From the NCBI RefSeq assembly GCF_000737325.1, contig NZ_CP011125.1, forward strand, positions 6,014,001-6,078,000: a DNA stretch of 64,000 nucleotides, written 5' to 3'. Below the pieces are notes generated by a model. That model saw nothing but the letters and a program-made list of their open reading frames with translations. It was not told the DNA's origin and ran no database searches. The position numbers and the translations under genes are program-made. This DNA comes from Sandaracinus amylolyticus (GTDB taxonomy: Bacteria > Myxococcota_A > Polyangia > Polyangiales > Sandaracinaceae). Shown here in pieces: positions 34,457 through 49,589 of the stretch (within the stretch, counting starts at the first letter, position 1; every line of letters begins with the position of its first letter).

Positions 34457-36234
34457 GCCGGCCTCACGGGCAGGTGCCGCGGGGTCCACGAGCGCGCGCG
34501 CACGAACGCGACGGGATCGGGATCCGCGCCCTCGGGCCACGTGCCGACTCCGTCGTCGACCGCGCGACGCATCACGCGCGCTGCGACGTGCGCCGAGACC
34601 TCGCGGAGCTCACGGATCGGCGGGTACATCGCGCCGCTCGCGAGGTGGCGCTCCTGCACGTACTCGGCGAGCGCGTACGCGGCCTCGAGCACCATCTGAT
34701 CGGTGATCTCGGACGCGCCCGAGAGCATCGCGCCGAGGCCGATCCCGGGGAACACGAACGCGTTGTTGCCCTGGCCGATCACGAAGCGCTTGCCGCCGAG
34801 CTCGACCGGCGCGAACGGCGATCCCGTCGCGACGATCGCGCGCCCCTCGGTCCACGCCAGCACGTCGGCGGGGCGTGCCTCGCACGACGTGATCGGGTTC
34901 GAGAGCGCGAGCACGATCGGACGCGCGCACTGCGAGCCGAGCTGCTTCACGATCGTCTCGTCGAACGCGCCCGCCTGACCGCTCAGGCCGATCAGCACGG
35001 TGGCGCGCCCCTCGCGCACCGTCTCGAGCAGATCGGGGCGCTCGCCCGTGATCTTCCAGCTCTCGATCGCTGCGCGACGCTGCGCGAGAGGCGCCTTGTA
35101 CGCCTCCATCTTCGCGCCTTCGATCAGCAGGCCGCGCGAGTCGAGGACGAGCACGCGCGCCCGCGCCTCTTCGTCGCTCAGCCCCTCGCGGCGCATGCCC
35201 GCCTGGATCGCCATCGCGACGCCCGCGCCACCCGCGCCCGCGCCGTGGATCACCACGCGCTGATCGCGGAGTCGCTCGCCCTTGCCCGCGCACGCCGCGA
35301 GCAGGCCCGCGAGCGCGACCGCGCCCGTGCCCTGCACGTCGTCGTTGAACGACGGCATCGAGCGGCGATGACGGTGCAGCACGTCGATCGCGGCGTCCTT
35401 CGCGAGGTCCTCCCACTGCAGCAGCGCGCGCGGATAACGCCGCGCGAGCGCGCCGACGAACGCGTCGACGAGCGAGAGATACGCCTGGCCACGCGCGCGC
35501 TCACGACGCACGCCCTGGTAGAGCGGGTCCTCGCGCAGCGAGTCGCGATCGGTGCCCGCGTCGAGCAGCACCGGCATCGTGCGCGCGGGATCGACGCCCG
35601 CCGCGCCGTAGAGCGAGAGCTTGCCGATCGAAATCCCGATGCCGCCGTGGCCGCGATCGCCGATCCCGAGGATCGCCGACGCATCGGTCGCGACGACGAC
35701 GCGCACGTCGTCCGCGGGCCACGCCGCGAGCAGCGCGTCGATGCGCTCGATGTCGTCGTACGTGATCACGAGGCCCTTGGGCTCCTGATGCACGTGATCG
35801 AAGCGCTCGATCGCCTCGGCGACGGTCGGCGTGTAGACGTACGGCAGCAGCTCTTCGAGGTGCGCGGCGAGCAGCGCCTGGAAGATCACGTCGCTGCGAT
35901 CCTGGATACCGCGCAGATAGAGATGACGACCGAGCGCCGTCGTCTGCAGCCCGAAGCCGGCGTACGCACGCTCGACCTGCTGCTCGAGTGTCGTGATCGC
36001 GGGCGGCAGCAGGCCCTCGAGCCCGAGCGCGCGACGCTCCTCACGGTCGAACGCCGCGCCCTTGTTCGTCAGCGGATGTCGCAGCAGCTGCGCGCCCCGC
36101 AGCGTCGTCGCGAGGTACGGCGCGCCTTGCGCGTCGTATCGGACCTCCACCTCGCGCGCCGCGCCCGAAGCCCTGGAGACGACGCCGGTCACCCGGCCCC
36201 CACGCTCCGTATCCGTCGTCGTCCCCTGGCTCAC
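34453..36234 (-). CDS. NAD-type malic enzyme (oxaloacetate-decarboxylating)
   Basis: A 593-residue protein of the long eukaryote-like (MaeA/SfcA) class, which oxidatively decarboxylates malate to pyruvate. Motifs: LLPYVYTPTVAEAIERF (malate site), KGLVITYDD, ILGIGDRGHGGIGISIGKL, LQWEDLAKDAAIDVLHRHR, FNDDVQGTGAVALAGLLAA, HGAGAGGAGVA (cofactor site) and ALSNPITSCEA. Overlapping starts with leuB and pheA place it in the branched-chain operon, where its pyruvate could feed both citramalate and acetolactate synthesis; that link is inference. Start GTG 36234 follows GGGAGGCGGAG. Confidence 0.92.
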   Translation of the reverse strand: MSQGTTTDTERGGRVTGVVSRASGAAREVEVRYDAQGAPYLATTLRGAQLLRHPLTNKGAAFDREERRALGLEGLLPPAITTLEQQVERAYAGFGLQTTALGRHLYLRGIQDRSDVIFQALLAAHLEELLPYVYTPTVAEAIERFDHVHQEPKGLVITYDDIERIDALLAAWPADDVRVVVATDASAILGIGDRGHGGIGISIGKLSLYGAAGVDPARTMPVLLDAGTDRDSLREDPLYQGVRRERARGQAYLSLVDAFVGALARRYPRALLQWEDLAKDAAIDVLHRHRRSMPSFNDDVQGTGAVALAGLLAACAGKGERLRDQRVVIHGAGAGGAGVAMAIQAGMRREGLSDEEARARVLVLDSRGLLIEGAKMEAYKAPLAQRRAAIESWKITGERPDLLETVREGRATVLIGLSGQAGAFDETIVKQLGSQCARPIVLALSNPITSCEARPADVLAWTEGRAIVATGSPFAPVELGGKRFVIGQGNNAFVFPGIGLGAMLSGASEITDQMVLEAAYALAEYVQERHLASGAMYPPIRELREVSAHVAARVMRRAVDDGVGTWPEGADPDPVAFVRARSWTPRHLPVRPA

Positions 36235-37322
36235 GCTCCGCCTCCCTGCCCTGCCGCCTGCGACATCGCATCCACGACCGCGTTGGTCATCTCGCGGGTC
36301 CCGAGCGTGCCACCGAGATCGCGCGTGCGCGCGCCCTTTGCGATCGCGACGTCCACACCGCGCTCGATCGCGGCCGCTTCGTCGGTCCAGCCGAGCGAGT
36401 GACGCGCGAGCATCGCGGCGCTCAGGATCGCGCCGACCGGGTTCGCGAGGCCCTTCCCTGCGATGTCGGGCGCCGAGCCGTGGATCGGCTCGTAGAGCCC
36501 GCGCGGGCCCTCCCCGAGCGACGCGCTCGGGAGCAGCCCGAGCGATCCCGCGAGCGCCGCCGCTTCGTCGGTGAGGATGTCCCCGAACATGTTCTCGGTG
36601 ACGATCACGTCGAAGTCCTTGGCGTGCGTCAGCAGCTTCATCGCGCAGGAGTCCACCAGCTGGTGCTCGAGCGAGATGCCACCGTGACGCGCCCCGACCT
36701 TCACCGCGATCTCGCGCCACAGCCGCGAGCTCTCGAGCACGTTCGCCTTGTCGACGCTCGTGACCTTCTTCTTGCGCGGCGCCGCGAGGCGGAACGCGAG
36801 CTCGACCACGCGCTCGATCTCGTTCTGGTCGTACACGAGCGTGTCGAATGCACGCTCGACGCCGTTCTCGACCGCACGGCCCTTCGGCGTGCCGAAGTAG
36901 AGACCACCGGTCAGCTCGCGCACGAAGACCATGTCCGCGCCCTCGATGCGATCGCGGCGCAGCGGCGACGCGTCCGCGAGCGCGGCGTGGAGGCGCACCG
37001 GGCGCAGGTTCGCGAACACGCCCATCGCCTTGCGCAGCCCGAGCAGGCCCGCCTCGGGGCGCGTCTTCGCGCGCGGATCGTCCCACTTCGGACCGCCGAC
37101 CGCGCCGAGCAGCACCGCGTCCGCGGCCACGCACGCCTCGCGCGTGCGCTCGGGCATCGCCTCCCCGGTCGCGTCGATCGCGATGCCGCCGAGCAGCTCG
37201 TCGCGCGTCTCGAACGACTTGCCGCCGCGCTTCGCCGCGACACCGAGCACGTGCAGCGCGGCCTCGGTCACCTCGGGCCCGATGCCGTCTCCGCCCAACA
37301 CCACGATCCGCGCGCTCGTCAT
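36231..37322 (-). CDS. leuB: 3-isopropylmalate dehydrogenase
   Basis: A 363-residue, full-length NAD-dependent decarboxylating dehydrogenase. Motifs: VLGGDGIGPEVTEAALHVL, LLGAVGGPKWDD, FVRELTGGLYFG, DKANVLESSRLWRE, VTENMFGDILTDEAA and EPIHGSAPDIAGKGLANP. In this operon it would act in leucine synthesis and, as a citramalate-pathway enzyme, on 3-methylmalate for isoleucine. The ATG overlaps the cimA stop by four bases. Confidence 0.96.
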   Translation of the reverse strand: MTSARIVVLGGDGIGPEVTEAALHVLGVAAKRGGKSFETRDELLGGIAIDATGEAMPERTREACVAADAVLLGAVGGPKWDDPRAKTRPEAGLLGLRKAMGVFANLRPVRLHAALADASPLRRDRIEGADMVFVRELTGGLYFGTPKGRAVENGVERAFDTLVYDQNEIERVVELAFRLAAPRKKKVTSVDKANVLESSRLWREIAVKVGARHGGISLEHQLVDSCAMKLLTHAKDFDVIVTENMFGDILTDEAAALAGSLGLLPSASLGEGPRGLYEPIHGSAPDIAGKGLANPVGAILSAAMLARHSLGWTDEAAAIERGVDVAIAKGARTRDLGGTLGTREMTNAVVDAMSQAAGQGGGA

Positions 37323-38926
37323 CCGACCTTCTCCTGCGGGGGCACGCTCGCGCGCGCGTGACGCGCGAGGCCGTGCTCGATTCCGTCCACCAGCGCTTCG
37401 AGGCTCGCCTCGACGACGCTCGACGACGCGCCGACGGTGCTCCACGTGTCGTCGCCGTCGCTCGTGTCGACGAGCACGCGCGTGACCGCGTCGGTCGCGA
37501 GGCGCCCGTCGAGGATGCGCACCTTGAAGTCGACCAGACGCAGCGCCGCGACCCGCGGCAGCGAGGGCTCGAGCGCCGCGCGCAGCGCTCGATCGAGCGC
37601 CGCGACCGGGCCCTGGTGCTCGCCCGCGGTGTGGACGACCTGATCGCCGATCGCGACCTTCACCGTCGCCTCCGCGGTCGGCTGCCCGTCGCGATCACGG
37701 CCCACGATCACGCGGTAGTCGAGCACACGGAAGGGCGCGACGTAGCCGGGACGCGCGCGCTCGATGCGCATCGCGACGCTCGCTTCCGCGGCGTCGAACG
37801 AGTAGCCGCGCGCTTCGTCGGCCTTGATCGCACGCACGACGCTACGCGCCTCTTCGTCCTCGAGCGAGAGACCAATCTGCTCGGCGTGCGCGTGCACGTT
37901 GCCCTGCCCCGCGAGCTCGCTGACGACCACGCGCGACTTGTTGCCGACGCGCTCGGGATCGACGTGCTCGTAGCTGCGCTTGCTGCGGCGCACCGCCGCG
38001 ACGTGGACGCCGCCCTTGTGCGCGAACGCGCTGCGCCCGACGTAGGGCTTGTGCGGATCGGGCGTGAGGTTCGCGAGCTCCACGAGCTCGCGCGCGGTCT
38101 CGGTGAGCTCCGCGAGCTTGCCCTCGGGCAGACAGCGCGCGCCGAGCTTCAGCTCGAGGTCCGGGATGATCGTGCAGAGATCCGCGTTGCCGCAGCGCTC
38201 GCCCCACCCGTTGAACGTGCCCTGCACGTGCCGCGCGCCCGCGCGCACCGCGGCGAGCGAGTTCGCGACCGCGAGACCGCCGTCGTCGTGCGCGTGGATG
38301 CCCACCGGGCACGAGAACGCGCGGACCATGCGGCCCACGATCGCCTCGACGTCCCACGGCAAGCTGCCGCCGTTCGTGTCGCAGAGGACGAGCTCGCTCG
38401 CGCCGCCGTTGCGCGCGGCGGTGAGCGACTCGAGCGCGTACGACGGGTCCTCGCGCCAGCCGTCGAAGAAGTGCTCCGCGTCGTAGACGACGGTGCGCCC
38501 TTCCTTCACGAGCAGCGCGACCGTCTGCTCGATCATCTTGAGGTTCTCGTCGAGCGTGACGCGCAGCACCTCGGTCACGTGCAGGCGCGAGCTCTTCCCG
38601 AAGATCGTGACGACGTCGGTGCCCGCCTCGAGCAGCGCCTCGACCTGAGGGTCGTGCTCGGGACGCACGTGCGCGCGGCGCGTCGCACCGAACGCGGCCC
38701 ACTTCGCGTGCGTGAGCTGGTGGTCGCGCGCCCGCGCGAAGAGCTCCGCGTCCTTCGGGTTCGAGCCCGGCCAGCCCGCCTCGATCCAGCTCACGCCCAG
38801 CCGATCGAGGCGATCGGCGATGCGCAGCTTGTCCTCGCAGGTGAGGCTCAGCCCCTCGCGCTGCGTGCCGTCGCGCAGCGTCGTGTCGTAGATCCGGACG
38901 CGAAGCGCGTCGACGACCTCGCTCAT
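37319..38926 (-). CDS. cimA: (R)-citramalate synthase
   Basis: A 535-residue member of the DRE-TIM (alpha-isopropylmalate synthase-like) family: IYDTTLRDGTQREGLSLTCE (metal-binding DTTLRDG), WIEAGWPGSNPKD, HAHDDGGLAVANSLAAV and GTFNGWGERCGNADL. The spacing and GWPGSNPKD match TIGR00977-type citramalate synthase rather than LeuA, and a separate leuA is present. It condenses pyruvate and acetyl-CoA, opening the threonine-independent isoleucine route. A C-terminal LeuA-dimer-type domain (from about 400) suggests feedback control. Coupled at both ends. Confidence 0.93.
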   Translation of the reverse strand: MSEVVDALRVRIYDTTLRDGTQREGLSLTCEDKLRIADRLDRLGVSWIEAGWPGSNPKDAELFARARDHQLTHAKWAAFGATRRAHVRPEHDPQVEALLEAGTDVVTIFGKSSRLHVTEVLRVTLDENLKMIEQTVALLVKEGRTVVYDAEHFFDGWREDPSYALESLTAARNGGASELVLCDTNGGSLPWDVEAIVGRMVRAFSCPVGIHAHDDGGLAVANSLAAVRAGARHVQGTFNGWGERCGNADLCTIIPDLELKLGARCLPEGKLAELTETARELVELANLTPDPHKPYVGRSAFAHKGGVHVAAVRRSKRSYEHVDPERVGNKSRVVVSELAGQGNVHAHAEQIGLSLEDEEARSVVRAIKADEARGYSFDAAEASVAMRIERARPGYVAPFRVLDYRVIVGRDRDGQPTAEATVKVAIGDQVVHTAGEHQGPVAALDRALRAALEPSLPRVAALRLVDFKVRILDGRLATDAVTRVLVDTSDGDDTWSTVGASSSVVEASLEALVDGIEHGLARHARASVPPQEKVG

Positions 38927-39525
38927 GACGTCGCCTCCTCACCGCTCGCGAGGCTCTCGAGATCGTGGCGACGCTCGAACGCGCGGATGCGATCGGCGTA
39001 CGCGACGAGGTACCCGAGCTCGTCGATGCCCTGCACCAGGCAGTGCTTCGCGAACTCGTCGATCGGGAACGTCGCGGTGCAGCCGTTCCACTTCACGCGC
39101 TCGTTCTCGAGATCGATCTCGATCTCGATCTTCGGATTGGCCTGCACCGCGCTCACCAGCGCGGCGTGCGGCTCGGGCGCGAGCGCGACCGGGAGCACGC
39201 CGTTGCGCGTCGCGTTGCCGCGGAAGATGTCGGCGAAGCCCAGCGCGATCACCGCGCGGAAGCCGCCCGCCTCGAGCGCCCACGGCGCGTGCTCGCGCGA
39301 GCTGCCGCACCCGAAGTTGCGCCCCGCGATCAGGATCTGCGCGCCCGCGTGCTCGGGCTTGTGCAGCACGAACTTCGGGTCCTTGCGCCACTCCGCGAAG
39401 AGACCCTCGGCGAGGCCCGCCTTGTCGATCGTCTTCAGGAAGCGCGCAGGGATGATCTGATCGGTGTCGACGTCGTCCGCGAGCAGCGGCAGCGCGTGCG
39501 ACTCGAGATGCGCGAAGGGCTTCAT
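38923..39525 (-). CDS. leuD: 3-isopropylmalate dehydratase small subunit
   Basis: A 200-residue, normal-length small subunit. Motifs: [40 protein letters not shown] and [17 protein letters not shown]. It completes the aconitase-like enzyme with LeuC and probably also hydrates citraconate in the citramalate pathway. The ATG overlaps the leuC stop. Confidence 0.96.
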
Positions 39526-40961
39526 GCCGCCACCTCCGGAACGAACGGGAGCTTCCGCGGATCGACCACCACGCCCGCGATCGCACACGCCGCGGCGGTG
39601 CGCGGCGACGCGAGGAACGTGCGGCTTCCCGGGCCCTGACGGCCCTCGAAGTTGCGGTTCGACGTCGACACCGCGTACTGGCCGGGCGTCAGTCGATCCT
39701 CGTTCATCGCGATGCACATCGAGCAGCCGGGCTCGCGCCACTCCGCGCCCGCGGCCTTGAAGATCTCGTGCAGACCTTCCGCCTCCGCGGCCTTCTTCAC
39801 GTCGTGCGAGCCCGGCACGACCATCGCGCGCACGCCTTCCTTCACCTTGCGGCCCGCGAGCACGGCCGCGGCCTCGCGCAGATCGCTGAGGCGCGAGTTC
39901 GTGCACGACCCGATGAAGACGACGTCGATCTTCTTGCCGAGCAGCGGCTTGCCCGGCTCGAGCCCCGTGTACTCGATCGCGCGCTGTCGCGCGGCGCGCT
40001 CGGCGCCGTCGGGCGCGTCCTCGGGGCGCGGCACCGGCGCGTCGATCGGGATCGCCATCGCGGGGTTCGTGCCCCACGTGATCATCGGCGCCAGGCGCGA
40101 GACGTCGATCGTGATCGTCTTCGCGAAGCGCGCGCCCTCGTCGGTCGGCAGCGCGCGCCAGCGCGCGAGCGCGCGATCCCAGCCCTCGCCCTTCGGCACC
40201 GCGGGACGACCGTGCAGGTACTGGTACGTCGTGTCGTCCGGCGCGACGAGACCGGCGCGCGCGCCCGCCTCGATCGACATGTTGCAGAGCGTCATGCGCC
40301 CTTCCATCGAGAGCTGGCGCACCGCCTCACCGCGGTACTCGAAGACGCATCCGGTGCCGCCGTCGACGCCGATCTGCGCGATCAGCGCGAGCACGAGATC
40401 CTTCGCGGTCACGCCCTCGGGCGCGCGCCCGCCGAAGAGCACCTCGACCGGCTCGGGGCGGCGCTGCAGCAGACACTGCGTCGCGAGCACGTGCGCGACC
40501 TCGCTCGTGCCGATGCCGAACGCGAGCGCGCCGAACGCACCGTGCGTCGACGTGTGGCTGTCGCCGCAGACGATCGTCATGCCCGGCTGGGTGCGCCCCA
40601 TCTCCGGACCGACGACGTGCACGATGCCGTTGCGCGGCGTGCCGAGCGAATAGAGCTCGATGTTGTTCTCCGCGCAGTTGCGCATCAGCTGCTCGAGCTG
40701 ACGACGCCCCTCGGAGTCGACGACCGCGAGACCACCGGGACGCGTCGGCGTCGAGTGATCCATCGTCGCGAGCGTCCGATCGGGGCGGCGCACCTTCATG
40801 TTGCGCTCGCGCAGCGTCGAGAACGCCTGGGGCGAGGTCACCTCGTGGACGAGGTGGAGATCGACGTAGAGCACCGCGGGCCGCTTCGGGTGCTCCGCGA
40901 CCACGTGCGACTCCCAGATCTTGTCGAACATCGTCCGAGGACGATCCGCCGTCGCGCTCAT
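39522..40961 (-). CDS. leuC: 3-isopropylmalate dehydratase large subunit
   Basis: A 479-residue [4Fe-4S] dehydratase subunit. Cluster cysteines are in [11 protein letters not shown] and [11 protein letters not shown]; other signatures are [40 protein letters not shown] and [19 protein letters not shown]. Start ATG 40961 shares one base with the leuA stop (TGATG). The order leuA-leuC-leuD is canonical. Confidence 0.96.
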
Positions 40962-42567
40962 CACGCACTCTCCTTCAAGCGAGCCTGTTCGCTGGCCTTC
41001 GCCACCACGCGTTCCTTGCGCGCGCGATCGAGCGCCGCGAGGTACGCCTTCGCGCTCGCGACGAGCACGTCGGTGTCCGCGCCGTACCCGGCGTGCAGAC
41101 CGCCCGACGCATCGCGCACCCGCACGCTGACCTCGCCGAGCGCGTCGATGCCCTCGGTCACCGCGTGCACCGTGTACTCGAGCAGCTCGACCGGCAGATC
41201 GACCACCGCGTCGATCGCGCGGAAGCACGCGTGCACGGGGCCCGTGCCCACGGCGGCCTGCGTCACGTCGCGTCCGTCCTCGCCGCGAAGACGAACCGTC
41301 GCGGTCGGCATGCCCTGCGTGCCCGCCGAGATCTGCAGCGCCTCGAGGCGCCAGCCGCCGAGCTCTTCGCGACGCTCCGACGAGACCAGCGCGAGCAGGT
41401 CCGCGTCGGTCACGTGCTTCTTGCGATCCGCGAGCGCCTTCATCGCGCTGAACGCCTGATCGAGCGCGGGCTGATCCATCGTCACGCCGAGCTCGGCGAG
41501 ACGCTTCTCCAGCGCGTGACGCCCCGAGTGCTTGCCGAGCACGAGCCGCGTGCCGCTCGCGCCGACGTCCTCGGCCTTCAGGATCTCGTACGTCTTCTCG
41601 TGCTTGAGCAGGCCGTCCTGGTGGATGCCCGACTCGTGCGCGAATGCGTTCGCGCCGACGATCGCCTTGTTCGGCGGCACCAGCATGCCGGTGTGCGCGC
41701 TGACGAGGCGGCTCGTGCGCGTGATCTGCGTCGGGTCGATCCCGGTGCGCAGGTTCATGCGATCACGACGGACCGCCAGCGCCATCACGACCTCCTCGAG
41801 CGCCGCGTTGCCCGCGCGCTCGCCGATGCCGTTGATGGTCAACTCCGCTTGACGAGCTCCGGCCTCGAGCCCGGCGAGCGTGTTCGCGACGCCGAGCCCG
41901 AGATCGTCGTGGCAGTGCACGCTCAGGATCACGCGGTCGACGCCGACCGCGTTCTTCTTCACGCCCGCGATCATCGCGTGCAGCTCGAACGGCGTCAGAT
42001 AGCCGACCGTGTCCGGCAGGTTGATCGTCGTCGCGCCCGCGGCGATCGCGACCGACGCGACCTCCCAGAGGTACTCGGGCTCGGTGCGCCCCGCGTCCTC
42101 CGCGCTGAACTCGACATCCTCGCAGAGCTCGCGCGCGCGCGCGACCATCTCGCGCACGCGCTCGATCACCTGCTCCTTCGTCATCCGGAGCTTGTGCTCG
42201 CGGTGGATCGGGCTGGTGGAGAGGAAGGTGTGGATGCGCGGGCGCATCGCGACCTTCACGGCTTCGTACGCACGCTCGATGTCGTTCTTCGTCGCGCGCG
42301 CGAGGCCGCACACGATCGGCGGCTCCGCCTGCGGGCGGCCCGGCACCGGATCGCGACCGATCCGCTCCGCGATCGCGCGCACCGCGGCGAAGTCGTCGGG
42401 CGACGACGCGGGGAAGCCCGCCTCGATGACGTCGACTCCGAGGCGCGAGAGCGCACGCGCGATCTCGAGCTTCTCCTCGCTCGTCATCGACGCGCCCGGC
42501 GACTGCTCGCCGTCACGCAGCGTCGTGTCGAAGATGCGAACGTAGTCCTGGCTCTCCACCGTGGACA

Positions 42568-42568
<1 letters not shown>
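40961..42568 (-). CDS. leuA: 2-isopropylmalate synthase
   Basis: A 535-residue leucine-pathway synthase: [17 protein letters not shown] (metal site), [64 protein letters not shown] and [19 protein letters not shown]-terminal regulatory domain (about 390-520) implies leucine feedback inhibition. The C-terminal extension is rich in Arg/Ala/Lys. Coupled to ilvC (TGATG) upstream and leuC downstream. Confidence 0.95.
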
Positions 42569-43677
<1,109 letters not shown>

Positions 43678-44268
43678 TCAGGCTGCTTCGTCGGTCAGAT
43701 CGACGTCGTCGTCGTCCTCGGACGCGACGACCTCGGTCTCCGGGCGCGCTTCACCGGACGCGCTCGCGCTCTGCGCAGAGGCACCGCGCGTCATCGCGAT
43801 CGATCCGGCCTGCACCATCTCGAGCACGCCGAACGGCTCGAGCAGCGTCACGAGCCCGCGGATCTTGTCCTCGGTGCCGGTGCACTCGATCATCATCGAG
43901 TCGAGGGCGACGTCGACGACGCGCGCGCGGAACACGCTGCAGACCTGCAGGATCGCCGCGCGATCCGCGGGCGTCGCGCGCACGCGCACCAGCGCGATGT
44001 CGCGCGTCACGCTCGGCCGGTGCGTGATGTCGTCGACGCGCACGACGTCGACGAGCTTGTAGAGGTTCGCCTCGACGAGGCGGCCCATCCGGTCGTCACC
44101 GCGCACCACGATCGTCATGCGCGAGATGCCGGGCTCGTGCGTGCGCCCGACGCTGAGCGACTCGATGTTGAAGTTGCGGCGGCGGAACAGCGACGCGACG
44201 CGATTGAGCACGCCCGGCACGTCCTCGACCAACACCACGAACGTCCGCAGGGACACACGATCGCTCAC
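43678..44268 (-). CDS. ilvN: Acetolactate synthase regulatory (small) subunit
   Basis: A 196-residue protein with an N-terminal ACT domain, TFVVLVEDVPGVLNRVASLF and RRRNFNIESLSVGRTHEPG, typical of valine-sensing small subunits, then RVRATPADRAAILQVCSVFR and a C-terminal domain. About 35 extra residues at the C-terminus are acidic (EDDDDVDL). GTG start overlaps the ilvB stop. Confidence 0.94.
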   Translation of the reverse strand: MSDRVSLRTFVVLVEDVPGVLNRVASLFRRRNFNIESLSVGRTHEPGISRMTIVVRGDDRMGRLVEANLYKLVDVVRVDDITHRPSVTRDIALVRVRATPADRAAILQVCSVFRARVVDVALDSMMIECTGTEDKIRGLVTLLEPFGVLEMVQAGSIAMTRGASAQSASASGEARPETEVVASEDDDDVDLTDEAA

Positions 44269-46016
44269 TTCGCGCCTCCATTGTTCTTGCTGGGACGGCG
44301 GATCATGTCGTGCAGATCCGCGCCCGCCGGGACCATCGGGTAGACCGCGTCCTCGGCCTCCACGCGGAACTCGACGACGAACGTCTTGTCGGTCGCGCGC
44401 GCCGCGGCGACGGCCGCCGGGATCTCCTCGCGCTTCGTCACGCGCATGCCGGGAAGACCGTGCGCGTCGGCGAGCTTCACGAAGTCCGGGCTCACGATCG
44501 GCGTCGCGACGTAGCGCCCGCCGTAGAAGAGCTCCTGCCACTGTCGGACCATGCCGAGGTAGCCGTTGTTGATGATCGCGACGTTGACCTTGATGCCGTC
44601 CTGCACGCAGGTGCTGAGCTCGGCCGCGGTCATCTGGAACCCGCCGTCACCGGCGATGATCCAGACTTCCTTCTCCTTCGCCGCGAACGCAGCGCCGATG
44701 CCGGCGGGCAGCGCGAAGCCCATCGTGCCGAGGCCGCCCGACGTCACGAGCCCGCGCGGGTGATCGTGCTTGTAGTACTGCGCCTCCCACATCTGATGCT
44801 GACCGACGTCGGTCACGACCACGGCCTTGCCTTCGGTGAGGCGATAGAGGTCGTGCATCACGTGCGCGGCGAAGAGGCGCCCGTCGTGCGGCGTGTTCAC
44901 GATGTCGATCGGCGCGACCTCGGCGCGCTTCGCGTCGAGCGCCGCGTTCCACGCGACGTGCTTCTTGTCCGCGACGCGCGGCAGCAGGCGCTCGAGCACC
45001 TTCTTGAGATCGCCGATCAGCGCGACGTCGACGCGCACGTTCTTGTCGACCTCGGCGGGATCGATCTCGACGTGGATCTTCTTCGCGTTCTTCGCGTACG
45101 TCGCGAGGTTGCCGGTCACGCGATCGTCGAAGCGCATGCCCAGCGCGATCAGGAGATCCGCCTCCTGGATCGCCTGGTTCACCCACGCCTCGCCGTGCAT
45201 GCCCATCATCCCGAGCGCGCGCGGGTGCGTCGCGGGGAAGCCACCGAGCCCGAGCAGCGTGAGCCCGACCGGGATGTCGCACTTCTCGACGAGCTGCGTG
45301 ACGAGCTCGGTCGAGCCCGAGCGCACGATGCCGTGGCCCGCGAGGATCACCGGGCGCTGCGCGCTCGCGATCAGCGCCGCGGCCGCGTCGAGATCGTGCT
45401 CCGAGATCGGCTTGCTCGGCGCGAGGCCGCGCTTGGCGCGCGACACACGCGTGCTCGCCGTCTTCTTCGGCGCGACGGGCGCGCACACGTTCTGCAGCGC
45501 GTCCTTCGTGATGTCGACGACGACCGGACCAGGCCGACCCGAGCGCGCGAGCTCGAACGCTTCGCGGAGGATCGGATAGACCTCCTCCGCGCGCGTGACG
45601 AGGTAGTTGTGCTTCGTGATCGGGATCGTCACGCCCGTGATGTCGGTCTCCTGGAACGCGTCGGTCCCGATGAACTTCGAGGGGACCTGACCCGTGATGA
45701 ACACGACGGGGATCGAGTCGAGCATCGCGGTCGCGATCCCGGTGACGAGGTTCGTCGCGCCCGGGCCCGACGTCGCGATCGCGACGCCGACCTTGCCGCT
45801 GACGCGCGCGTAGCCGTCGGCCATGTGCGCCGCGCCCTGCTCGTGACGGCAGAGGATGTGGCGCACCGGGTAGCGCGGCATCACGTCGTACGCCGGCATG
45901 ATGCAGCCGCCCGGATAGCCGAAGACGACCTCGACGCCTTCCGCGACGAGCGCCTCCCACATCGCCTCGGCGCCGCGCTTCACTTCGCTCGTCGTGCTGG
46001 GATCGGAACCGTCCAT
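44265..46016 (-). CDS. ilvB: Acetolactate synthase catalytic (large) subunit
   Basis: A 583-residue thiamine-diphosphate enzyme. Motifs: FGYPGGCIMPAYD, CRHEQGAAHMADGYARVSG (catalytic Glu), SGPGATNLVTGIATA, RFDDRVTGN, and the ThDP motif GDGGFQMTAAELSTCVQ with NNGYLGMVRQWQ. It makes 2-acetolactate and 2-aceto-2-hydroxybutyrate. ATG 46016 is chosen for its GGAGGGAGA site; a TTG at 46037 overlapping the ilvD stop is an alternative. Confidence 0.95.
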   Translation of the reverse strand: MDGSDPSTTSEVKRGAEAMWEALVAEGVEVVFGYPGGCIMPAYDVMPRYPVRHILCRHEQGAAHMADGYARVSGKVGVAIATSGPGATNLVTGIATAMLDSIPVVFITGQVPSKFIGTDAFQETDITGVTIPITKHNYLVTRAEEVYPILREAFELARSGRPGPVVVDITKDALQNVCAPVAPKKTASTRVSRAKRGLAPSKPISEHDLDAAAALIASAQRPVILAGHGIVRSGSTELVTQLVEKCDIPVGLTLLGLGGFPATHPRALGMMGMHGEAWVNQAIQEADLLIALGMRFDDRVTGNLATYAKNAKKIHVEIDPAEVDKNVRVDVALIGDLKKVLERLLPRVADKKHVAWNAALDAKRAEVAPIDIVNTPHDGRLFAAHVMHDLYRLTEGKAVVVTDVGQHQMWEAQYYKHDHPRGLVTSGGLGTMGFALPAGIGAAFAAKEKEVWIIAGDGGFQMTAAELSTCVQDGIKVNVAIINNGYLGMVRQWQELFYGGRYVATPIVSPDFVKLADAHGLPGMRVTKREEIPAAVAAARATDKTFVVEFRVEAEDAVYPMVPAGADLHDMIRRPSKNNGGAK

Positions 46017-46033
46017 CGCGCTCTCCCTCCGCC

Positions 46034-47731
46034 TCAATCGCCCATCACGGCGCCGCGGCTCGCGCTCTGCACGAGCTTCGCGTAGCGACGCAGCCAGCGA
46101 CTGCTCACGTTCTTCTCGCGCGGCGCGAGCGCGCGCAGGCGCGCCGCGATCTCCGCCGCATCCACCTTCAGCTCGATCGTCCGCGCCTCGACGTCGATCG
46201 CGATGCGATCACCGTCGCGCACGGCCGCGATCGGGCCCCCCGCCGCGGCCTCGGGCGCGACGTGACCGATGCACGCGCCGCGCGTCGCGCCGCTGAAGCG
46301 ACCATCGGTGATCAGCGCGACCGAGCCACCGAGGCCACGACCGCTGATCGCGCTCGTCGGCTCGAGCTGCTCGCGCATCCCCGGCCCTCCCGCAGGGCCC
46401 TCGTAGCGGATCACGACGACGTCGCCCGCGACGATCTCGCCCGCGTGGATCGCGGCGATCGCTTCGTCGTGCCCGTCGAACACGCGCGCCGGGCCCTCGT
46501 GCTTGCGCATCGAGGGCTCGATGCCGCCGGTCTTCACGACGCTGCCCTCGGGCGCGAGATTGCCGTAGAGCACGGCGAGCCCGCCCTGCTTCGTGTACGG
46601 GTTCTCCAGCGGCCGGATGACCTCGGTGTCGAGGATCTTCGCGCTCTCGATCGTCGCGCCGAAGCTCGACGCGCCGACCACCGGACGATCGAGGTGCAGC
46701 ACGCCGAGGCGACGCAGCTCCGACAGGATCGCCGGCACGCCCCCCGCGCGGTGCACGTCTTCCATGTGGAACTTGCCCGAGGGCGCGACCTTGCACAGGT
46801 ACGGCACGCGCTTCGAGATCGCGTCGATGCGCGCGAGGTCGAAGTCGACGTCGGCCTCGCGCGCGATCGCGAGCCCGTGCAGCACCGTGTTCGTGCTGCC
46901 GCCCATCGCGACGTCGAGCGCGAACGCATCGTCGAACGCCTCGAGCGTCAGCACCTTCCGCGCCGTCAGCCCGCGCTCGATCGCGTCCTTCAGCGCGAAC
47001 GCCGCGCGCTTCGCGATGTCGTTGCGCTCGTCGGTGCCCGCGAGCGCCGAGCCGTTGAACGGCAGCGCGAGACCGAGCGCCTCGCTCATGCAGTTCATCG
47101 AGTTCGCGGTGAACATCCCGCTGCACGAGCCGCACGACGGGCACGCGCTCTCCTCGAGCATCTGCAGGCGCTGCAGCGACGTCTTGCCCGCCTTCAGCTG
47201 CGCGACGCCCTCGAACACCGTCGCGAGGTTGATCGCCTCGCCGTCCGGCGTGCGTCCCGCGCGCATCGCGCCGCCGCTGACGAACACGGTCGGCACGTCG
47301 AGGCGCGCCGCCGCCATCAGCATCCCCGGCGTGATCTTGTCGCAGTTGGGGATGCAGATCATGCCGTCGAGCTGGTGCGCCTCGATCATCGTCTCGACGC
47401 AGTCGGCGATCAGCTCGCGGCTCGGCAGCGAGTAGCGCATGCCCGAGTGGCCCATCGCGATCCCGTCGTCGACGCCGATGGTGTTGAACTCGAAGGGCAC
47501 CATGCCGGCGGCGCGGATCGCCTCCTTCACCACGCGACCGAACTGCTGCAGGTGCACGTGGCCCGGCACGATGTCGACGTACGAGTTGACGACGGCGACG
47601 AACGGCTTGCCCCAGTCCTCTTCCTTCACGCCGGTCGCGCGCAGCAGCGCGCGGTGCGGCGCGCGCTCGGTGCCGCGCTTGATCGCGTCCGAGCGGTGCT
47701 TCGTCTTCGTCGTCTCGTCGTCGTGGCTCAT
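46034..47731 (-). CDS. ilvD: Dihydroxy-acid dehydratase
   Basis: A 565-residue iron-sulfur enzyme: [33 protein letters not shown] (Cys ligand), [19 protein letters not shown] (Cys ligands), [26 protein letters not shown] and [21 protein letters not shown]. It is the first structural gene of the operon, and its upstream region holds a hairpin, a Leu/Val/Ile-rich ORF and a promoter. ATG 47731 is selected on protein alignment. Confidence 0.96.
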
Positions 47732-47775
47732 GGTCGTGCTCGTTCGTGCTCGGAATGCGCGCGCGCAGAAGCGCA

Positions 47776-47809
47776 ACGGCCCCCGCTGCCTCGTGGCTGC
47801 GGGGGCCGT
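47776..47809 (-). terminator. GC-rich leader hairpin upstream of ilvD (possible attenuator)
   Basis: ACGGCCCCCGC (47776-47786) pairs perfectly with GCGGGGGCCGT (47799-47809) around a 12-nt loop. In the direction of ilvD transcription it lies 21 nt after the stop of the Leu/Val/Ile-rich ORF and 44 nt before the ilvD ATG. That is the expected place for an attenuator terminator, but no clear U-run follows. Confidence 0.6.
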
Positions 47810-47830
47810 CTTCCCTCGATTTGCCTATCG

Positions 47831-48178
47831 CTAGGCCGGCCTCCCGCAGTCGTCGCCGATGAGAACGAGGACGACGAGGACGAGAATGAGGAGGACGAGC
47901 CCGCCGAGGAGCCCGATGCCGCCGATCCCGCCCGCGAAGAAGCCGCCGATGCCCGCAAAGAAGAACGGCGTGGGAGCCAGAGCGCCCACGCCGTTCATCA
48001 CCATCACCGTCGCCGCCGCCGTCATCGCCGCCGCCGAGGCCGTGCCCATCGACTTGGGCATCCAGCTCGGCGCGCGCTCGGCACGCGCGCGGTCGTTCTT
48101 CATGGCCTCTTCACGCACTGCGCAGACGTCGGTCCGGCTCAGCCGGCGCGCGCGCATCGAGTGCGAGTGAGTGCCCAT
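47831..48178 (-). CDS. Leu/Val/Ile-rich ORF upstream of ilvD (leader peptide or small membrane protein)
   Basis: A 115-codon ORF from an ATG 10 nt after the -10 of the operon promoter; an internal ATG at 48103 with a GAAGAGG site gives 90 residues. The first half is basic and Met/Ala-rich; the second half is hydrophobic (PTPFFFAGIGGFFAGGIGG) and contains 14 consecutive branched-chain codons, LVLLILVLVVLVLI (47858-47899), then GDDCGRPA and stop. This fits a ribosome-stalling leader for the ilv/leu operon. The alternative is an ordinary one- or two-helix membrane protein. No homologue is recognised. Confidence 0.5.
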   Translation of the reverse strand: MGTHSHSMRARRLSRTDVCAVREEAMKNDRARAERAPSWMPKSMGTASAAAMTAAATVMVMNGVGALAPTPFFFAGIGGFFAGGIGGIGLLGGLVLLILVLVVLVLIGDDCGRPA

Positions 48179-48188
48179 GACGCGACGC

Positions 48189-48217
48189 GTTATCCCTCGT
48201 TTTCTGGAGGGTGTCAA
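48189..48217 (-). promoter_or_regulatory. Sigma-70-like promoter of the ilv-leu operon
   Basis: On the minus strand a perfect -35 TTGACA (48217-48212), a 17-bp spacer and -10 GATAAC (48194-48189) precede the leader ORF. Transcription would begin about 48182, only a few bases before the ATG at 48178. It is the best consensus promoter noticed in the window. Confidence 0.7.
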
Positions 48218-48264
48218 GCTGCGTGTTCTTCCTCACGGTCAATTCGGTCGGATACGGTGAGCCG

Positions 48265-48420
48265 ATGTCGGCACGCGAAGAATCCCGCGAACTGGGGCCT
48301 CCGAGGCGCAGCGCGCCAGTCCGGCTAACACGTTCGTCAGCGATTTCGCGGTCGAGCGTGGCAATCGACCCCGAGATGCGGAGTCGCGCGGACCTGCCCC
48401 ATCGGGTGGGAGTCGCTTGA
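48265..48420 (+). CDS. Possible 51-codon ORF coupled to the FemAB/GNAT-like gene
   Basis: An ATG 6 nt after a TACGGT hexamer opens a 51-residue basic, Ser/Arg-rich peptide (MSAREESRELGPPRRSAPVR...). Its TGA shares a base with the next gene's ATG (TGATG). Promoter position and coupling support translation; no domain is recognised. It may instead be the 5' end of a longer transcript with no functional peptide. Confidence 0.35.
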   Translation: MSAREESRELGPPRRSAPVRLTRSSAISRSSVAIDPEMRSRADLPHRVGVA

Positions 48421-49589
48421 TGCGATCGAGTGGGCGGCCCAGCCTCTCGGCGGTGGAGATCCGAGTGATCGAGCGCGTCGCGGAGGTCGAGGCCGCCGCG
48501 TGGAACGCGCTCGTCGGAGACGACGATCCGTTCGTCGAGCACGCGTTCCTCGATGCGCTCGAGGTGAGCGGCAGCGTCGGCGAGGGAACGGGCTGGCTGC
48601 CGATGCACCTCACCGCGTGGGAGGGCGAGCGCCTCGTCGGCGCGCTGCCGCTCTACGCGAAGGACGACAGCTGGGGCGAGTTCATCTTCGACTTCCAGTG
48701 GGCGCGCGCCGCGCAGCAGTCGCGCATCGCGTACTACCCGAAGCTCACGTCGATGGTGCCGTTCACGCCCGCCACGGGACGGCGGCTGTTGATCGCGGAG
48801 GGCGTCGATCGCGCGGCGGTGATCCGCGCGCTCTTCACGGCGGCGCGCGGCGCGGCGGAGGAGCTCGGCGCGTCGTCGGTGCACGTGCTCTTCGTGAGCG
48901 AGGACGAGCGACGCGAGCTGATCGAGCTCGCGCAGCTGCGCCCGCGTCTCTCGATCCAATTCCACTGGCACAACGAGGGCTGGTCGAGCTTCGACGAGTA
49001 CCTCGACGCGTTCCGCGCGCCCGCGCGCAAGCAGGTGCGCCGAGAGCGACGCGAGGTCGCGGAGAGCGGCGTCGACGTGCGCGTGAAGGTCGGCCCCGAG
49101 CTCGACGACGACGACTGGCGCGCGCTCGGCACGTTCTATCGGATGAACTGCGCGCGGCACGGCTCGTATCCGTACCTCACGCCGAAGTTCTTCGAGCGCA
49201 TCCGCGCGACGAGCGCCGAGCGCCTCGTCGCGGTGCTCGCGTATCGCGAGGGCGCGCCGATCGCGGGGTCGATCAACTTCGAGAAGGGCGCGCACCTCTA
49301 CGGCCGCTACTGGGGCTGCGTGGAGGACACCGAGTTCCTCCACTTCGAGGTCTGTTACTACCGGCTCATCGAGCGCGCGATCGCGAAGAAGATGCGGCGC
49401 TTCGAGGCGGGCGCGCAGGGCACGCACAAGCTGAAGCGAGGGTTGATGCCCTCGCCGATCCACAGCGTGCACTGGCTGCGGCACCCGCGGCTCGCCGCGG
49501 CGATCGAGGACTACCTGCCGCGCGAGGCGTTCGCGGTGCAGCAAGAGATCGAAGAGCTCGCGGCGAGCGGTCCGTTCAAGCGCGGCTGA
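48420..49589 (+). CDS. FemAB/GNAT-like acyltransferase family protein (COG3146-like)
   Basis: A 389-residue soluble protein. Conserved stretches include NPFVEHAFLDALE-like (DDPFVEHAFLDALEVSG), HLTAWEGERLVGALPLYAK, the repeat-like KQVRRERREVAESGVDVRVK, FYRMNCARHGSYPYLT and FEAGAQGTHKLKRGLMP, matching the DUF482 'peptidoglycan biosynthesis/recognition' family with two GNAT-like halves. The acceptor is unknown; a cell-wall or amino-acyl transfer role is guessed from the family. Convergent with the next gene; the stops abut. Confidence 0.75.
   Translation: MRSSGRPSLSAVEIRVIERVAEVEAAAWNALVGDDDPFVEHAFLDALEVSGSVGEGTGWLPMHLTAWEGERLVGALPLYAKDDSWGEFIFDFQWARAAQQSRIAYYPKLTSMVPFTPATGRRLLIAEGVDRAAVIRALFTAARGAAEELGASSVHVLFVSEDERRELIELAQLRPRLSIQFHWHNEGWSSFDEYLDAFRAPARKQVRRERREVAESGVDVRVKVGPELDDDDWRALGTFYRMNCARHGSYPYLTPKFFERIRATSAERLVAVLAYREGAPIAGSINFEKGAHLYGRYWGCVEDTEFLHFEVCYYRLIERAIAKKMRRFEAGAQGTHKLKRGLMPSPIHSVHWLRHPRLAAAIEDYLPREAFAVQQEIEELAASGPFKRG

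Follow-up and report, generated by a model that had tools for sequence, protein, structure and literature searches.

The stretch of DNA analysed here (64,000 nucleotides of Sandaracinus amylolyticus, hereafter the window) carries on its minus strand nine consecutive genes for branched-chain amino-acid synthesis in the order ilvD-ilvB-ilvN-ilvC-leuA-leuC-leuD-cimA-leuB, and a leader open reading frame (ORF) stands directly upstream of this biosynthetic operon (Table 1). The leader ORF ends in LVLLILVLVVLVLI-GDDCGRPA and a stop codon (47833-47831), and it encloses an uninterrupted series of Leu, Val and Ile codons, the amino acids made by the operon. As the original prediction had pointed out, 14 such codons follow one another, a hairpin begins 21 nt past the leader stop codon, and ilvD comes next. 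The start codon of ilvD (47731) lies 45 nt beyond the hairpin. Two further elements were absent from that account, namely an inverted repeat within the leader ORF and a pairing that would compete with the hairpin. The operon also contains, alongside leuA, a cimA-like (citramalate synthase) gene at 37319-38926, and this combination suggests a threonine-independent route to isoleucine.

Table 1. Features of the leader region and of the downstream operon (window coordinates)
Feature	Position	Strand	Basis or remark
-35 element TTGACA	48212..48217	-	position conserved among leaders of the family
Probable -10 element GATAAC	48189..48194	-	spacer of 17 to the -35 element; start codon 10 nt downstream
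Leader ORF, 115 codons (MGTHSHSM...GDDCGRPA)	47831..48178	-	near-leaderless; ORF list and translation
Inverted repeat, 18 nt, 89% complementary, 4-nt loop	47960..47999	-	inside the leader ORF, upstream of the codon run
Control codons, an unbroken run of 14 for Leu, Val or Ile, including a single rare ATT	47858..47899	-	translation
Antiterminator strand CTGCGGGAGGCCG	47837..47849	-	lies within the final codons of the leader; complementary to the terminator 5' arm
Terminator 5' arm	47795..47809	-	common to antiterminator and terminator
Terminator 3' arm	47776..47790	-	followed by the weak U-tract TTGCGCTTCT
ilvD, first gene of the operon	46034..47731	-	Pfam ILVD_EDD_N and C
ilvB, ilvN, ilvC, leuA, leuC, leuD, cimA, leuB	36231..46037	-	ORFs; ilvB by Pfam, others named from sequence

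Promoter and reading frame of the leader

The leader had been described as starting from the best promoter of the window. A consensus scan of positions 47000-49000 gives no sigma-70 site above threshold, but a TTGACA/GATAAC pair is recognisable and its arrangement is kept in relatives. Indeed, the A and T positions at which the -10 element matches are those conserved across 55 aligned promoters, and the nearest relative (genome G002) has a weaker version, GAGAAC. The likely start codon, ATG 48178, is only 39 nt downstream of the first base of TTGACA (48217), in agreement with the near-leaderless start proposed at the outset. A palindrome, TGACGCGACGCGTTA (48178-48192), overlaps this start codon and might possibly serve as an operator; its occurrence in the window is within chance, and a similar palindrome is found at the -35 element of some related leaders. 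An operator palindrome at the promoter, TGACGCGNCGCGTYA, was considered and rejected: its presence in the window is no more than chance would give, the related pattern TTGACGCGNCGCG has 9 genome-wide occurrences compared with 13 for control matches, and a similar palindrome is present in just 12 of 55 leader promoters. The inverted repeat within the leader ORF (47999-47960) is perhaps a pause hairpin; genome G007 has an inverted repeat at a similar place in its own leader (GACGCGGCCC/GGGCCGCGTC).

The leader ORF of G002 has 118 codons and a predicted product 94% identical to that of the window, and its frame is kept despite two in-frame indels. The differences are concentrated in the first 60 codons or so (7 synonymous and 8 non-synonymous changes in addition to the two indels), while about the last 56 codons, including the run, show none; the DNA is unchanged from about codon 63 until past the hairpin, a block of at least 229 bp. 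This identical block is suggestive only, ilvD itself being 97% identical between the two genomes (50 of 1698 positions differ, 44 codons synonymously) with identity unbroken for at most 161 nt. The check asked for in the original prediction, whether the run is better conserved than the rest of the ORF, thus comes out in its favour, and the run, antiterminator and terminator together form the conserved part of the leader, in a comparison of moderate power between two close species. The 45 nt separating the hairpin from ilvD are in contrast full of indels. Since this spacing is so short and indel-rich and follows at least 229 identical nucleotides, we infer that ilvD is transcribed through the hairpin.

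The main alternative raised by the original prediction was a small membrane protein; in this reading the ORF would end at a terminator of its own and ilvD would be expressed from a separate promoter. The run has the hydrophobicity that a membrane helix requires, and the ORF is long, with a frame kept between two species. However, the 45 variable nucleotides before ilvD leave no room for such a promoter, and the only Pfam match of the ORF is sub-threshold. Protein homologue searches, in which a homologue remote from ilvD would have spoken against attenuation, returned only the G002 copy, which is also upstream of ilvD, together with weak matches that look compositional; no homologue independent of ilvD was found.

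Control codons and competing helices

Twenty Markov-shuffled versions of the window give maximal Leu/Val/Ile runs of 4 to 7 codons, against 14 observed. In the whole genome (a single contig of 10,327,335 bases) about 10 other runs of 12 such codons exist; nearly all are simple repeats of the GTGGTC type, whereas the run of the window is mixed. Because comparable runs occur elsewhere, the run alone is not decisive, and it is the conserved arrangement that decides. Across 56 leaders of the family described below, the fraction of branched-chain codons is 0.54-0.88 at codons 9-21 before the stop, with 0.88 at codon -9, and drops to 0.05-0.34 across the last 8 leader codons. These leader ends also favour a rare isoleucine codon, with an ATT:ATC ratio of 93:44 compared with 162:1667 in the operon genes (odds ratio 22); the same comparison of T- and C-ending codons for non-branched-chain amino acids gives an odds ratio of just 2.3. 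ATT clusters 8-11 codons before the stop. In the window, the final Ile codon at -9 (9 codons before the stop) is ATC, and the single ATT comes earlier in the run.

The hairpin (47809-47776) had been described as a perfect 11-bp stem; it actually consists of 12 bp and 3 bp flanking one A.A mismatch, with a 4-nt loop and a folding energy of -32.8 kcal/mol. It lies as a predicted intrinsic terminator between the leader and the first gene, and a strong hairpin is present at this place in all leaders. The U-tract of the window is the weakest seen in the family, many relatives having T5-T8 tails, and this poor tract leaves the efficiency of the window terminator uncertain. In the 12 leaders found by hand, the 5' arm of the terminator begins 19-28 nt past the stop codon.

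The last codons of the leader encode a strand that pairs with the 5' arm of the terminator (CTGCGGGAGGCCG with CGGCCCCCGCAG in the window) and so excludes the terminator, in a position that a ribosome at the stop codon could cover. In the window this antiterminator reaches -27.1 kcal/mol compared with -17.1 +/- 2.9 for shuffles (p 0.004), and the pairing is better than in shuffles in all 12 hand-found leaders (p 0.002-0.041). In the wider set, about a quarter of the leaders do not reach significance in this test; in one clade the antiterminator strand apparently lies just past the stop, outside the tested stretch. Both helices covary, with 15 double changes in the antiterminator (3.0 in shuffles) and 13 in the terminator (2.1 in shuffles), neither count being reached in 500 shuffles; the counts are inflated by kinship among the sequences, and the antiterminator is absent from the structure of the fitted model. 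In folding calculations the antiterminator forms when a ribosome is held within the run and transcription has yet to reach the terminator 3' arm, and the terminator forms when the ribosome sits at the stop codon. Once the transcript is complete, the terminator is in every case the more stable of the two, so that the switch would rest on timing and kinetics, like that of established attenuators.

The weak U-tract of the window could also fit a cis-regulation of another kind, through a codon-independent RNA element, Rho-dependent termination or a leader-binding protein. A precedent exists in Streptomyces, where the codons of the ilvB and leuA leaders deviate from the classical prediction; in S. 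coelicolor, regulation was unaffected when the candidate regulatory codons in the ilvB leader were altered (PMC1262725). We nevertheless consider such a mechanism very unlikely here, given branched-chain codons that are position-specific and end at -9, the preference for the rare ATT, a covarying antiterminator that overlaps the last leader codons, and the good U-tracts of most relatives.

A family of leaders across the order

The leaders of genomes G007 and G005 (IlvD 66-67% identical) are unrelated in their N-terminal sequence and end in VVVSVVLVVVVLLALLVLITGGGALLG and PLALLLLVLIGLVLITGGGPPLP, respectively, each followed by a GC hairpin and then ilvD, and a scan of other families revealed the same layout before much more distant ilvD genes. 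A covariance model (R1), built from 11 leaders with the terminator pairs as sole structure, was run on 177 genomes of the order. The best 30 matches all stand before ilvD, ilvB or an ilvC-like gene; among the next 28 examined, 26 precede ilvB, ilvD or leuA, and the remaining two lie shortly before a contig end. Hence 56 of the 58 best matches, that is all those with an identifiable downstream gene, are located before ilv or leu genes; 11 of the matches are the training sequences and the remainder are not. Three further matches outside the order lie before ilvD, ilvD and ilvB. Every match overlaps an ORF with branched-chain codons ahead of its stop. The model recovered members missed by the scan upstream of ilvD, which alone had overlooked most of them because many operons begin with ilvB or with an ilvC-like gene.

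What is conserved over about 60 genomes is the layout and not the sequence of the leader peptides. In 55 of 56 leaders an in-frame start codon follows TTGAC at a distance of 33-43 nt, compared with 11 of 872 control positions, and leaders of the family are therefore probably leaderless or nearly so. Their normal length is 33-90 codons (median 49). The unusual length noted initially for the window thus holds in that its 115 codons and the 118 of its sister G002 are the longest found; long leaders as such are ordinary in the family.

The composition of the downstream operons is variable. Several genomes have a gene for a diverged IlvC-like protein in first place behind the attenuator, ahead of ilvB (L251 1622-2259 and L259 1912-2960, reverse-complemented), with about 32-36% identity to IlvC over the first 200 residues. 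In G031 and G054, the attenuator precedes leuA instead of an ilv gene (L302 801-2545; L306, reverse strand, 801-2529). The IlvD of the window is itself 67% identical to IlvD of Chloroflexi/Anaerolineae and about 47% identical to most IlvD of its own order, and a second search with this protein across other genomes returned matches from distant phyla only. The same attenuator stands before both the Chloroflexi-like and the order-typical IlvD; ilvD has probably been replaced horizontally while the attenuator stayed.

This distribution bears on two of the alternatives. In about 60 genomes unrelated peptides occupy the corresponding position upstream of ilv and leu operons, and neither the ATT bias nor the antiterminator complementarity would be expected of a membrane protein; this reading, which the original prediction had kept in reserve, finds no support in the searches and appears highly improbable. 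That a low-complexity run happens to adjoin an ordinary terminator might be argued from the 12-codon runs at about 10 other sites of the genome, mostly simple repeats. The recurrence of the combination before branched-chain operons across the order, without similarity of the peptides, and the distribution of the covariance-model matches already contradict such a coincidence, to which we attach a negligible probability.

Proposed mechanism and comparison with known attenuators

We therefore regard it as very probable, from comparative sequence evidence, that the region is a ribosome-mediated transcription attenuator of the ilvDBNC-leuACD-cimA-leuB operon. The branched-chain attenuation proposed originally is borne out by the same layout before ilvD, ilvB, ilvC-like and leuA genes in about 60 genomes and by the covariation of both helices. 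Briefly, RNA polymerase would initiate at or just ahead of ATG 48178, and a ribosome would load on the leaderless or near-leaderless start codon and translate the leader ORF. When charged Leu-, Val- and Ile-tRNA are ample, the ribosome would pass the run and reach the stop codon (47833-47831), where its footprint would cover the antiterminator strand (47849-47837); the terminator (47809-47776) would then form and transcription would stop short of ilvD. If Leu, Val or Ile runs low, the ribosome would stall in the run and leave the antiterminator strand free to take the terminator 5' arm before the 3' arm is made, and the polymerase would continue into the operon, readthrough thus rising on starvation. 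A variant, in which the leaders are leaderless, the rare ATT near -9 makes isoleucine the main signal and the 115-codon leader of the Sandaracinus type also yields a small trans-acting membrane peptide, seems to us rather unlikely.

If so, classical translation-coupled attenuation reaches the branched-chain operons of much of the Myxococcota. The family offers about 60 aligned examples in which the order of the operon, and even its first gene, vary while the switch persists; with near-leaderless starts and rare ATT codons at specific positions, these examples make the rules of control codons testable. The family would also explain short ORFs ahead of ilv genes that annotations omit or misname.

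Classical attenuators of this type are known from the ilvGMEDA, ilvBN, leu and trp operons of enterobacteria. The leaders described here share with them an ORF with cognate codons and mutually exclusive antiterminator and terminator helices between which a stalled ribosome decides. They differ in a longer leader (115 codons; family median 49), a near-leaderless start, an antiterminator strand within the last leader codons and the lack of an Rfam match; indeed, a cmscan of the window region against Rfam 15 brought no family near its gathering score and sub-threshold chance matches only. The ilvB-II motif of the Corynebacterium ilvBNC operon, for which a reporter responds to the medium, likewise combines a uORF rich in branched-chain codons with a terminator and an antiterminator, but its uORF is usually 15-17 codons long, lies before ilvB and belongs to a different phylum (PMC10272879). 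Compared by description only, the ilvB-OMG and Leptospira ilvB motifs are similar in their predicted uORFs before ilvB, rich in branched-chain and Thr codons (PMC10272879). Actinobacterial ilvB and leuA leaders also have runs of Ile, Val and Leu codons by a terminator; unlike here, these runs overlap the terminator, and the S. coelicolor mutagenesis gave no support to classical attenuation (PMC1262725). A leucine-rich attenuator peptide is reported to control branched-chain synthesis at the ilv operon of Staphylococcus aureus (PMC5794164), a system of a different phylum that is set beside ours by description only. A search of openly readable papers gave no description of branched-chain attenuation in Myxococcota. 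The type of attenuation is thus known, and the leaders, apparently undescribed in this phylum, effectively make up a new family within it.
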